Of a stretch of 30,121 nt of DNA, positions 1-30,121 are shown piece after piece. The DNA is from a virus: positions 1-30,121 of IMG/VR virus record IMGVR_UViG_3300032293_000181. One strand, written 5' to 3'. The notes below the pieces were generated by a model that searched no databases, was not told where the DNA came from, and was given only the letters and a program-made list of their open reading frames with translations. How positions within the stretch are numbered: position 1 is the first letter of the stretch; every line of letters starts with the position of its first letter. A program made the position numbers and the translations under genes.

Positions 1-123
1 ATGCAAAAAGCCCACGTTTCCCTTCATGGATTCCAAAACGATGGGTTCGGAGTACGGTGTGATGCGTCCGCCCGTTTCTGTCTCCTTGACCTTGCGCACG
101 TGTATGTGCGTGAATCTCCAATC
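1..123. repeat. Direct terminal repeat, copy 1 (circular closure)
   Basis: These 123 bases are identical to the last 123 bases (29999..30121). The repeat lies inside the helicase gene, and the frame continues correctly across the join. It is therefore best read as the overlap an assembler leaves when a circular or circularly permuted genome is cut at an arbitrary point, giving a unit length of 29,998 bp. A true short terminal repeat of the packaged DNA cannot be excluded, but its position inside a coding sequence argues against it. Confidence 0.95.
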
Positions 124-867
124 GACTGGGTGGCCAGCATAACGATGGCACACGACTACACAGTCGGCTCGGTTGCCCCACTTGCCCCCTCCTTCAATAT
201 CCGCAATACCTACGGGCATAGGAAGGCCTGCGTATTCGTGCTTGTCGTGGTGGACTTTTCGCATCGCCTCGGTCACGGGGTGCGTGCTTACGATGGTGGT
301 GATTTGGTTCGAGTGGCTGAACACACGGAAGGCACTTGCCACCTCGTAGTGATATTCGTGCATTGATACCTTTCCAAGGCGGGTCTGATCGGTGCGCAGG
401 GAGTTATACGGGTCAACAAATGCACCCGTGTAGTCCCAGTCCGCCAATGCCTCTCCGTAAATATCAAGCAGCTCGAATGCTGAAAGGATCTTGTTCGGGT
501 TTATGAACTTGAAAAAGTCATCCAGGAAAGCCAGGTCGGAGTACATTCGCTGGGGATCAATCATGTTGATCGGCTTCCCGTTTAGGAACTCCACCAACTT
601 CCGCTGAATTGAATGCACCTCGTTCTCTGCCGTGTAGCAAAGCCACTTCTTGCCGTAGGTGATGGACTGCATGAGCATCAGGTAGAACATCGTGTGCGTC
701 TTGCCCACGTTGGCATGCCCCGTGGTAACGATGAACTCACCTGGCTTGAACCGAAGGAAGTCATCAATGGCATCGTTTCCGATGCGACCCATGTCGAAGT
801 ATTTACCCATTTGCGCTCGTTCGAGGTACGGAAGGGTGTCCGTAAGGGAGATAATATCTGAATGCAT
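1..867 (-). CDS. DnaB-type (SF4, RecA-fold) replicative helicase, first 289 codons; continues at 29998..29957
   Basis: ATP-driven DNA unwinding motor, probably for phage replication. The gene starts at ATG 867 and runs off base 1. Across the circular junction it ends at TGA 29957..29959, for 302 residues in total. It contains a Walker A motif GHANVGKT at residues 50-57, a CYTAENE motif, a Walker B strand AFVDPYNSL, a THP motif in IVSTHPVTEA (sensor-like H3) and a C-terminal WGNRADCVVV block. This is the order seen in SF4/DnaB C-terminal domains. The N-terminal DnaB primase-interaction domain is missing, so this is a RecA-core-only form, as in some small phages. The start is preceded by the leader AAAACCAATCA and a TATGTTTG box at 886..893, directly after a terminator. 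A recombinational ATPase is the main alternative. Confidence 0.85.
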   Translation of the reverse strand, partial: MHSDIISLTDTLPYLERAQMGKYFDMGRIGNDAIDDFLRFKPGEFIVTTGHANVGKTHTMFYLMLMQSITYGKKWLCYTAENEVHSIQRKLVEFLNGKPINMIDPQRMYSDLAFLDDFFKFINPNKILSAFELLDIYGEALADWDYTGAFVDPYNSLRTDQTRLGKVSMHEYHYEVASAFRVFSHSNQITTIVSTHPVTEAMRKVHHDKHEYAGLPMPVGIADIEGGGKWGNRADCVVVCHRYAGHPVDWRFTHIHVRKVKETETGGRITPYSEPIVLESMKGNVGFLH

Positions 868-868
868 T

Positions 869-879
869 TGATTGGTTTT
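869..879 (-). promoter_or_regulatory. Leader motif AAAACCAATCA before the helicase start
   Basis: On the minus strand AAAACCAATCA ends one base before ATG 867. The same motif precedes starts at 1675, 2032 and 27752, with variants before 1407 and 27139. An exact reverse complement sits at 947..957 on the other side of the terminator. Confidence 0.55.
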
Positions 880-885
880 ATTTTG

Positions 886-893
886 CAAACATA
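886..893 (-). promoter_or_regulatory. Putative -7 box TATGTTTG upstream of the helicase
   Basis: Perfect match to the Bacteroidetes -7 consensus TAnnTTTG, 18 nt before the helicase ATG and immediately after the terminator U-tract. No TTG is seen 19-21 bp upstream, where terminator hairpin sequence lies, so a host-type -33 element is missing. A phage-modified polymerase (for example with the sigma factor at 28758..29300) could be needed; that is inference. Confidence 0.45.
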
Positions 894-927
894 TTAAAAA
901 AAAAGAAGGTGGGGTGTTACCCCCACC
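893..927 (-). terminator. Rho-independent terminator between the OB-fold gene and the helicase
   Basis: In the minus-strand RNA a 7-bp GC-rich stem (GGUGGGG / CCCCACC, 927..921 with 914..908) with a 6-nt loop is followed by UUC and nine U residues. It lies 27 nt past the stop of the gene at 955..1407. It closes the early unit, and a new -7 box follows immediately. Confidence 0.8.
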
Positions 928-946
928 CTCCTACCTAGGTGCCACC

Positions 947-957
947 AAAACCAATCA
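947..957 (-). repeat. Distal arm of an 11-nt perfect inverted repeat (partner 869..879)
   Basis: The plus strand reads AAAACCAATCA here and TGATTGGTTTT at 869..879. In a readthrough minus-strand transcript the arms can pair around the terminator hairpin and bury the helicase leader. The arm overlaps the stop codon of the upstream gene. Confidence 0.6.
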
Positions 958-1407
958 GAAAGGCACCTCGGTTACACGCTCGGCCATGTGCTGCGCATGG
1001 CTTACTTCTTTTTTCTCGTTTGCCATCCAGTCATTGAAGATCTGGGCGGTAGCGAGAACTTTGTCTTGGCCGATTGGCTGGCCTTGACCAATGAATGCGT
1101 TGCAGTATTCGACTGCTGCTTTCAATGCTACCTGACGGATGATTGATGCGCTGCGAGCGGAATCGTCTGCGGGCTTGCGGTATGCGCTTGCGCCTCCTCC
1201 GTTGTAAGCAGGGCGATCAATTTTAATGGTTCCCTTCTCGTTGATCGTGAAGGCCAACTCGTCACCTGGCTGGTGTGGCTCGCTGGAGTTCTTTGAGAAG
1301 ATCGTACCATGCCGACCATCGTCAAAGGTCATTTGGTATTTGTAGAATGTTGCACCATCGCCTGATGTCCAGGTACCTGCGGGGGAGATTGATGTTACTT
1401 TTGCCAT
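955..1407 (-). CDS. Putative OB-fold single-stranded DNA-binding-like protein (150 aa)
   Basis: Residues 1-65 look like a small beta-barrel: alternating hydrophobic strands with aromatic residues (FYKYQMTFDDGRHGTIF), then a GDELAFTINEKGTIKI strand. A basic and serine-rich linker and a helical tail follow (SIIRQVALKAAVEYC, LATAQIFNDWM). From memory, Bacteroidetes phages often carry such OB-like proteins beside replication genes; the function here is inferred from that and from the position between RusA and the helicase. It lacks the acidic C-terminal tip of a typical SSB. ATG 1407 is preceded by AAAAAACCAGTC, a variant of the leader motif, and by a TAAATTTG box at 1431..1438. A strong terminator follows. 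Confidence 0.55.
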   Translation of the reverse strand: MAKVTSISPAGTWTSGDGATFYKYQMTFDDGRHGTIFSKNSSEPHQPGDELAFTINEKGTIKIDRPAYNGGGASAYRKPADDSARSASIIRQVALKAAVEYCNAFIGQGQPIGQDKVLATAQIFNDWMANEKKEVSHAQHMAERVTEVPF

Positions 1408-1430
1408 GACTGGTTTTTTAAGTTATTAAA

Positions 1431-1675: not shown

Positions 1676-1688
1676 GTGATTGGTTTTT

Positions 1689-2035: not shown

Positions 2036-2046
2036 TGATTGGTTTT
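2036..2046 (-). promoter_or_regulatory. Leader motif AAAACCAATCA before the gene at 1847..2032
   Basis: Copy of the leader element, 3 nt from ATG 2032 and inside the transcript expected from the promoter at 2061..2090. Confidence 0.5.
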
Positions 2047-2685: not shown

Positions 2686-2944
2686 GTTGCAAAATTGTTC
2701 TAAAAAAAAATAAAAACAAATTTGCGTGATTGGTTTTTTTGTTTATTTTACCAAAGTAAGTAGTATATAACTAGTTAAGTAAGTTAAGTAATACTAGTTA
2801 AGTTATTTAGTTAGTTAGTTACTTAAGTACGTAAGTAAAATTAAAAATAAAATAAATCCTGCGATTTAAGCCACGTTCTACTAACCACCTATACCAACAT
2901 ACCACTTTTGGTATTAAATGCGTTACAACGCACCTAAATGCCCT
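2686..2944. other. Noncoding region with AGTT-rich direct repeats and two dyads
   Basis: About 259 bp with no credible gene, the largest noncoding gap in the genome. From high to low coordinates it holds a dyad TGCGTTGTAACGCA near 2919..2932, a dyad ATACCA-CTTT-TGGTAT at about 2899..2914, and an AT-rich block at about 2760..2840 built of TTAAGT/AGTT units. ACTAGTTAAGT occurs twice in that block (2770..2780 and 2793..2803). It lies between the last lysis gene and the first early gene. It could be a replication origin, an early control region or both; no DnaA box or full promoter is visible. Confidence 0.6.
2727..2737 (-). promoter_or_regulatory. Leader motif AAAACCAATCA in the early noncoding region
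   Basis: Exact 11-nt copy of the element found before the starts at 867, 1675, 2032 and 27752. Here no ATG follows directly; the next gene starts about 42 nt downstream. A near match to the -7 box (TTACTTTG) lies a few bases upstream. Confidence 0.45.
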
Positions 2945-27139: not shown

Positions 27140-27359
27140 TTGGTTTGTGTAAAATAGAGTTAATGTCGTTTACTAAAAAGAGCTTTCCTCTTTCGTCCTG
27201 CTCTACTTTTAACCCCACCTCCTCCAATAGCTCTAGGTATCTATACACGGAGCGGACGGTTATTTTCAGCGTCTTTGAGAGATAGTGATGCGATTTGCTT
27301 TCTCCAGATTGCAGCTCCTTAATAAGCTGGAACACCCGATAAATTCGATGCTGATTCAT
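27126..27359 (-). CDS. Winged helix-turn-helix protein (77 aa)
   Basis: Start ATG 27359 was chosen: the in-frame extension to 27488 overlaps the upstream gene and is unlike a protein. The sequence is one wHTH: HRIYRVFQLIKELQSG, HHYLSKTLKITVRSVYRYLELLEEVG as recognition helices, then a wing KVEQDERGKLFLV. It resembles HTH_11/WYL-regulator N-termini, without an effector domain. It may control early or late gene expression; the target is unknown. Confidence 0.72.
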   Translation of the reverse strand: MNQHRIYRVFQLIKELQSGESKSHHYLSKTLKITVRSVYRYLELLEEVGLKVEQDERGKLFLVNDINSILHKPNESN

Positions 27360-27753: not shown

Positions 27754-27764
27754 TGATTGGTTTT
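27754..27764 (-). promoter_or_regulatory. Leader motif AAAACCAATCA before the gene at 27624..27752
   Basis: Exact 11-nt copy of the leader element, one base before ATG 27752. Confidence 0.5.
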
Positions 27765-29976: not shown

Positions 29977-30121
29977 GATTCAGTAAGTTAGTTCCGTTAT
30001 GCAAAAAGCCCACGTTTCCCTTCATGGATTCCAAAACGATGGGTTCGGAGTACGGTGTGATGCGTCCGCCCGTTTCTGTCTCCTTGACCTTGCGCACGTG
30101 TATGTGCGTGAATCTCCAATC
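29957..30121 (-). CDS. DnaB-type helicase, 3' end (continuation of the gene at 867..1)
   Basis: Bases 30121..29999 repeat 123..1, and 29998..29957 add the last 13 residues (NGTNLLNHGHVPV) and a TGA. The end overlaps the start of the next gene (ATG 29976) by 20 nt in another frame, which supports translational coupling. Confidence 0.85.
   Translation of the reverse strand, partial: DWRFTHIHVRKVKETETGGRITPYSEPIVLESMKGNVGFLHNGTNLLNHGHVPV
29999..30121. repeat. Direct terminal repeat, copy 2 (circular closure)
   Basis: Exact copy of bases 1..123. Joining 29998 to 1 restores one helicase reading frame. Confidence 0.95.

Follow-up and report, generated by a model that had tools for sequence, protein, structure and literature searches.

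Base-pairing control by the 3′ ends of mRNAs is already known. In the trans-acting small RNAs of the CpxQ type, which derive from 3′UTRs, the end of an mRNA together with its terminator carries a seed for several 5′UTRs, and CisR is said to be a phage-related example of an RNA of this origin. The loops of plasmid antisense RNAs, which are encoded opposite their target, set incompatibility groups, and P4 CI and P1 c4 RNA belong to the phage antisense and small RNAs. Others, namely STnc6030, sas, VpdS, PreS and OOP, are covered in a review whose main text contains no word starting with Bacteroid or Flavobacter (PMC12197685). The closest documented mechanism is that of the S. aureus icaR mRNA, in which a motif in the 3′UTR pairs with the translation initiation region and blocks initiation (PMC3868564).

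The locus described here lies in a phage record of 30,121 bp, the whole of which was analyzed and is referred to as the window. We propose, at a probability of about 60%, that the 3′ end of its SSB-like mRNA is a base-pairing regulator that targets early mRNAs in trans at their 5′ ends, most probably blocking translation initiation. Like icaR, the SSB mRNA of one loop class (AB, below) could pair its own 3′ end with its own initiation region; unlike icaR, the phage system is phage-encoded, would share its target among several other mRNAs and uses a dedicated leader in an SD-less context. With the 3′UTR-derived sRNAs it has in common an mRNA 3′ end with a terminator and a conserved seed complementary to several mRNAs encoded elsewhere, whereas its seed is a hairpin loop holding a stop codon and its putative targets are the phage's own early genes. 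It resembles the phage antisense RNAs in being a proposed phage RNA that acts by base pairing, as some known ones do on phage genes, but its anti-leader loop does not overlap the target, one loop serves a shared leader, and there are three specificity classes. As in the plasmid antisense loops, the loop sequence changes together with the target and defines orthogonal classes, but here loop and targets are at separate places. The new parts relative to known systems would be a leader shared by many of the phage's own genes, so that one loop addresses many viral transcripts, and the exchange of code words, which are rewritten on both sides. In open-licence PMC papers searched with narrow terms, neither the element nor any RNA regulator in phages of this kind was found described.

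A hairpin at the 3′ end of the SSB-like gene, ahead of the helicase gene

Because the record carries a 123-bp exact direct terminal repeat (window 1-123 and 29999-30121), it is probably a complete, circularly closed phage genome of ~29,998 bp; the helicase gene spans the join. The portal protein, with a relative in Nonlabens phage P12024S (39.7%), and the helicase, whose distant relatives in the phage collection amount to 12 records (best 33%, Maribacter phage Panino), point to a tailed phage that is distant kin of Flavobacteriia phages. The host is probably a Bacteroidota bacterium, and the promoter-like boxes in the window are of the Bacteroidota TAnnTTTG type. No cultured relatives of the SSB-like protein were present in the phage collection, and a helicase profile search of genome_contigs (host genomes) returned 0 relatives. 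One partial SSB-profile match (34%) in a MAG called Halomonas (L356) was taken as chance or unrelated.

All genes relevant to the inverted repeat are on the minus strand, and the features of the locus are listed below in their order on that strand.

955..1407, minus: SSB-like gene, 150 aa, with a C-terminal ...VPF tip (ORF call)
933..972, minus: hairpin, arms 972-962 and 943-933, 10 pairs and 1 mismatch, 18-nt loop 961-944
947..957, minus: anti-leader segment TGATTGGTTTT within the hairpin loop, the record's only antisense copy
903..932, minus: intrinsic terminator stem-loop, then a T run (terminator scan)
886..893, minus: TATGTTTG, Bacteroidota-type -7 promoter-like box of the helicase unit (from the sequence; consensus TANNTTTG, PMC6847099)
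869..879, minus: leader AAAACCAATCA of the helicase; start codon 867-865
1..867, minus: DnaB/primase-helicase-like gene, putative loop target (phrog_18375, E 3.3e-30), running off the contig end into the terminal repeat

The SSB-like protein had no match in Pfam. Its AF2 model contains an OB-like N-terminal barrel with a weak Foldseek match to the RPA OB-fold (E 0.027), and PF is the C-terminal end in all six of the aligned SSB-like members (6/6). SSB-like tips (DVPF, DAPF, DDPF) also end the helicases of classes B, C and D, e.g. in G016, G009 and G013; the one A′ helicase that was inspected (G003) is without such a tip.

As the first-pass annotation of this DNA had reported, TGATTGGTTTT at 869-879 and AAAACCAATCA at 947-957 are exact 11-nt reverse complements, 67 nt apart. 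No longer complement joins the helicase start region to the sequence upstream of it, and 0 of 200 dinucleotide shuffles reached this length. The promoter-like box that the annotation had seen just after the terminator indeed lies between terminator and leader, at 893-886, but the terminator itself had been misplaced at 893..927: its stem runs from 932 to 903 on the minus strand and is followed by T's. What had gone unnoticed is that the distal arm, 947-957, is the middle of the 18-nt loop of a second hairpin and hence is not free, and that the leader to which the proximal arm belongs is present in several copies. The SSB-like stop codon (957-955) is inside the same loop, and the hairpin adjoins this stop codon with the terminator next to it, i.e. 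it is an mRNA 3′ end that shares its terminator. The folding z score of the hairpin and terminator region was -3.33 versus shuffles. Rfam 15 gave 0 matches in the window at the gathering score, and in region 700-1100 only sub-threshold matches at the level of chance. The sole other strong intrinsic terminator in the window (strict scan) is at 9694-9667, minus, within the structural gene block.

The annotation had further proposed that the two arms pair in cis only, in an RNA that reads through the terminator, so that the helicase start is masked and escapes through transcription from its own promoter. When the readthrough RNA was folded, which was one of the checks the annotation had suggested, the minimum-energy structure did not contain the 11-bp pairing (-46.1 kcal/mol free versus -44.4 kcal/mol forced; nested folds, no pseudoknots), because the distal arm is held in the competing hairpin. 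The cost of forcing the cis pairing is only 1.7 kcal/mol in this nested model, which speaks for the cis proposal, as does the position of the arms on either side of terminator and promoter; against it, the hairpin competes and wins in the nested fold.

Leader copies and their placement

The leader AAAACCAATCA occurs six times in the record, five times on the minus strand and once on the plus strand, and the pattern read backwards occurs 0 times. Four of the five minus-strand copies are at most 5 nt from a start codon, and all leader-bearing sites are outside the structural gene block. Besides the helicase leader, the following were identified.

1407..1416, minus: leader AAACCAGTCA of the SSB-like gene itself, with an A to G change that keeps a G.U pair with the loop; -13.6 kcal/mol
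1677..1687, minus: leader AAAACCAATCA of a 79-aa gene; start 1675
2036..2046, minus: leader of a 61-aa gene, within a 14-nt complement CAAAACCAATCAGA; start 2032
2727..2737, minus: leader AAAACCAATCA ~40 nt ahead of an ATG, not near a start codon (from the sequence)
27140..27149, minus: degenerate leader (CACAAACCAA) of a 259-aa gene; weak duplex, -8.5 kcal/mol
27754..27764, minus: leader AAAACCAATCA of a gene for a 42-aa small hydrophobic protein; start 27752

The strongest duplex tested in the window was that of the 61-aa gene leader (-21.1 kcal/mol), and the 259-aa gene is doubtful as a loop target in this phage. Early and late gene blocks are separated at window 2754-2825 by AT-rich imperfect tandem repeats (AAGTAAGTTAAGTAATACTAGTT, TAGT), which are possibly an origin or control region.

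To place the complements, each record was scanned for exact complements of at least 10 nt to its own 19-nt loop, not counting the loop. There were 108, of which 105 were on the helicase strand and 95 at a start codon, based on the criterion that an ORF of at least 28 aa starts within the complement or up to 15 nt behind it, which 33.8% of random places (3246/9600) also satisfy. Matches of 10-mers on the helicase strand numbered 221, versus 19.0 expected from shuffled loops. A TAnnTTTG box was located at -48..-8 of 48 of the 91 targets, which were chosen by motif, compared with 42 of 1003 other ORF starts, and such a box stands between terminator and leader in the window and in many relatives. 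In Flavobacterium promoters the distance from the TAnnTTTG element to the start site is often 4 or 5 nt (PMC6847099), and given this spacing the leader starts a few bases from the predicted mRNA 5′ end in many units.

The position of the leader directly behind promoter-like boxes would also fit an element that works as DNA: the leader could be an operator, an iteron or a promoter element that is initially transcribed, with an inverted site in the loop. We consider this very improbable, as the loop copy is always in the opposite orientation and 105 of the 108 other copies are on one strand, while changes of the G.U type occur and the loop is set within a kept stem. No conserved promoter box was found inside the SSB gene, and for that reason the putative regulator probably consists of the end of the SSB-operon transcript on its 3′ side; transcripts initiated at the 893-886 box would be without the loop and would serve only as targets.

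Loops and leaders in related phages

Eighty helicase loci were fetched and 57 distinct upstream regions were scored, the window included and duplicates collapsed (loci L013, L017 and L074 were too short and were left out of upstream scoring). A complement of at least 9 nt to the helicase start region was present in 53 of the 57, and in the remaining four (L010, L019, L039 and L052) the loop is farther upstream, behind an insert, at -649 in L010, -594 in L039 and -783 in L019. In L019 and L039 the gene inserted behind the terminator bears the leader, and in L052 (record G017) the hairpin is separated from the helicase by a tRNA with a long insert (Rfam RF00005). The distance from hairpin to leader ranged among relatives from 67 nt to several hundred nt.

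These data divide the earlier proposal. That the arms pair stood up well: they are very probably meant to do so, in view of the 53 upstream regions with a complement, and a leader kept while the distal arm was lost, the pattern the annotation had held to be at odds with its proposal, was seen in none of the 57. The helicase switch acting in cis only did not: the arms do stay adjacent in most relatives, but there are five exact minus-strand leaders in the record, the distance varies up to several hundred nt, inserted genes take the leader, and the readthrough RNA folds without the pairing. We therefore regard a purely cis-acting switch as unlikely, and cis pairing as possibly a side effect.

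Two SSB scans and a second helicase scan agreed with the first helicase scan. The second helicase scan used a D-type profile, for which 80 of 587 relatives were kept; an AB loop was present in all 23 of the loci inspected upstream, and no further loop class was found among them. A regular expression for the loop, which was built on the three known classes and is blind to others, matched 319 loci; this set is redundant, since many loci are pieces of a shared contig that overlap, and it reduces to 35 distinct stems, 34 of which have at least 6 pairs (L304 has 4 by the same scan). In a de novo search for leader and anti-leader, the known hairpin ranked top in G005, G018 and G013 and level with a trivial match in the window; it was missed in G009, and nothing convincing was returned in P12024S.

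Three loop classes, AB, C and D, were apparent in related phages, in which the hairpin and the pairing are kept while the sequences switch in parallel (loop/leader pairs TGATTGGTTT/AAACCAATCA, GTGTGTGTTT/AAACACACA(C) and TTTTAGGTGTTT/AAACACCTAAAA).

Class AB: loop TGATTGGTTT; leaders AAACCAATCA(G)
Class C: loop TAGTGTGTGTGTTT; leaders AAACACACA(CAC)
Class D: loop TTTTAGGTGTTTC; leaders AAACACCTAAAAC

The D helicase differs in that its ATG is 3-4 nt after the box, and pairing with the loop, at ATGAAACACC, takes in the start codon. C phages, whose loop is of low complexity, have between one and three clear targets.

The specificity of the classes was examined in a matrix of 24 records with simple gene calling, in which an exact loop complement of at least 9 nt was counted in the leader, -22..+3. 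For the A-class loop, genes with such a complement numbered 13/117 in A, 17/167 in A′, 17/113 in B, 9/100 in B′, 0/277 in C and 5/271 in D. The C loop had complements at 10/277 genes in C and the D loop at 16/271 genes in D, each with 0 in the other classes. Expressed as rates, own-class matches occurred at 9-15% of leaders in each of A, A′, B and B′, at 3.6% in C and at 5.9% in D, and cross-class counts were 0 save for the 5/271 D genes that match the A and B loops; the reversed, sense and complement-only controls gave 0-4 per cell. Most of the AACCAATC places in D records are internal to coding regions, lie antisense or lack a good start. At one of them, +3660 from the helicase start, the 42-aa gene of record G019 (class D) has a real AB-type leader AAAAACCAATCAATATG; this gene was probably acquired and brought a foreign code word, which makes it a natural mismatch test.

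In a second test, genes were picked by protein homology, without reference to the motif. The leaders of the helicase bound the loop of their own class best in 12 of 12 distinct windows, and the own loop was also bound best by 7/9 leaders of the 42-aa gene, 8/12 of the p53 coiled-coil-like gene, 13/20 of the 259-aa gene and 13/16 of the SSB gene (AB 10/10, C and D 3/6). The 42-aa gene leader reads AAAAACCAATCAAATG in A, AAACACACACACAATG in C and AAACACCTAAAACAATG in D, and the 259-aa gene has the leader in some phages only. As own-loop preference is incomplete for the 42-aa, SSB, p53 and 259-aa genes, not every homologue is a target.

The sequence comparison shows that loop and leader match as complements, that they have remained so in diverged phages and that they switch jointly; selection on the pairing is well supported. 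The compensatory changes that the first-pass annotation had recommended looking for in relatives were thereby obtained across classes. A single 11-nt pair would by itself be modest evidence, and a chance or neutral inverted duplication might account for it; that explanation has next to no probability given a pairing kept across classes with changed sequences and at several genes, and it is contradicted by the class matrix. In the tree of 24 helicases, in which C and D are each well supported and AB has support of 92/91, three specificities require two class switches, and since there are only these two and the records within a class are near copies, independent switch events are few.

Evidence of covariation within a class is weaker. 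In 54 B-type sequences, 540 of 540 loop-leader cells pair and nine of the ten pairs are invariant; at the tenth, 8 of 54 leaders have changed C to U, which keeps a G.U pair. The outer stem of these sequences shows 99.3% pairing, with three sequences changed on both sides (CG to UA), but B-type pairs changed on both sides did not exceed the control, as 80 of 500 shuffles were as high. An alignment in which the A leaders were out of register with the B leaders was left out of the counts.

The three orthogonal loop-leader classes in related phages are also what might be expected of an incompatibility or superinfection device, in which a resident phage would use its RNA to silence same-class phages that enter later and so drive loop and leader to switch. 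Phage antisense RNAs with a role in exclusion are known (STnc6030 and sas; PMC12197685), but there is no evidence here of lysogeny or co-infection, and we find such a device improbable as the explanation; it is compatible with early-gene control, the two not being exclusive.

Proposed regulation of early mRNAs

We infer that the element works as RNA, in trans and by repression, the last from the position of the pairing and from what is known of SD-less initiation. According to the proposed regulation in trans, the SSB-like mRNA would end in a hairpin presenting an 18-25-nt loop, whose sequence is the antisense of a short leader with which several mRNAs of the early or replication module of the same phage begin. 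The SSB transcript, either whole or as a piece ending at the terminator, would pair in trans with these leaders, and in class AB its loop would also pair with its own 5′ leader. Pairing would extend over the start codon or the bases immediately ahead of it and so block 30S binding; as SSB mRNA rises, the helicase and other early genes would be turned down together. Because the stop codon is within the loop, translating ribosomes would hide the loop, and the regulator may act only upon a pause in SSB translation or after processing. The stop codon in the loop thus suggests coupling to SSB translation.

A different outcome of the same pairing would be activation or stabilization of the leader mRNAs, by protection or unfolding of their 5′ ends, or the main partner might be the 5′ end of the SSB mRNA itself, i.e. 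autoregulation between 5′ and 3′ UTRs. All 10 distinct SSB leaders of class AB pair best with the AB loop, at a mean of -14.5 kcal/mol, as these readings would have it; however, the SSB gene is without an own-loop leader in C (1 window) and mixed in D (5 windows), there are many other targets, and a position over the initiation region favors a block. We give these readings a small but real chance of being correct. Returning to repression in trans, we extend it only tentatively, at just under even odds, to a one-to-many RNA regulon in Bacteroidota phages, in which an anti-leader loop would control every unit with a matching leader and at least three orthogonal code words would be exchanged as a set, possibly also conferring class-specific immunity. 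If true, this would provide Bacteroidota with orthogonal RNA regulators as a natural set, the question of how multi-target RNA regulons change specificity could be addressed in a clean system, and it would reveal early-gene control in an uncultured phage group that recurs in public metagenome contigs.

Hairpin and terminator are separated by a tRNA or tRNA-like stretch in A′ and in some D phages. Rfam 15 matched only tRNA in eight relatives, and the A′ stretch was unsupported as a tRNA by ARAGORN or Rfam. In part of class D, a tRNA gene with a long insert (RF00005, 44.2 bits) is located between hairpin and terminator at 3729-3849 in L052 and at 3800-3920 in L077, and 5′ processing of the class D tRNA might create the 3′ end of the regulator.
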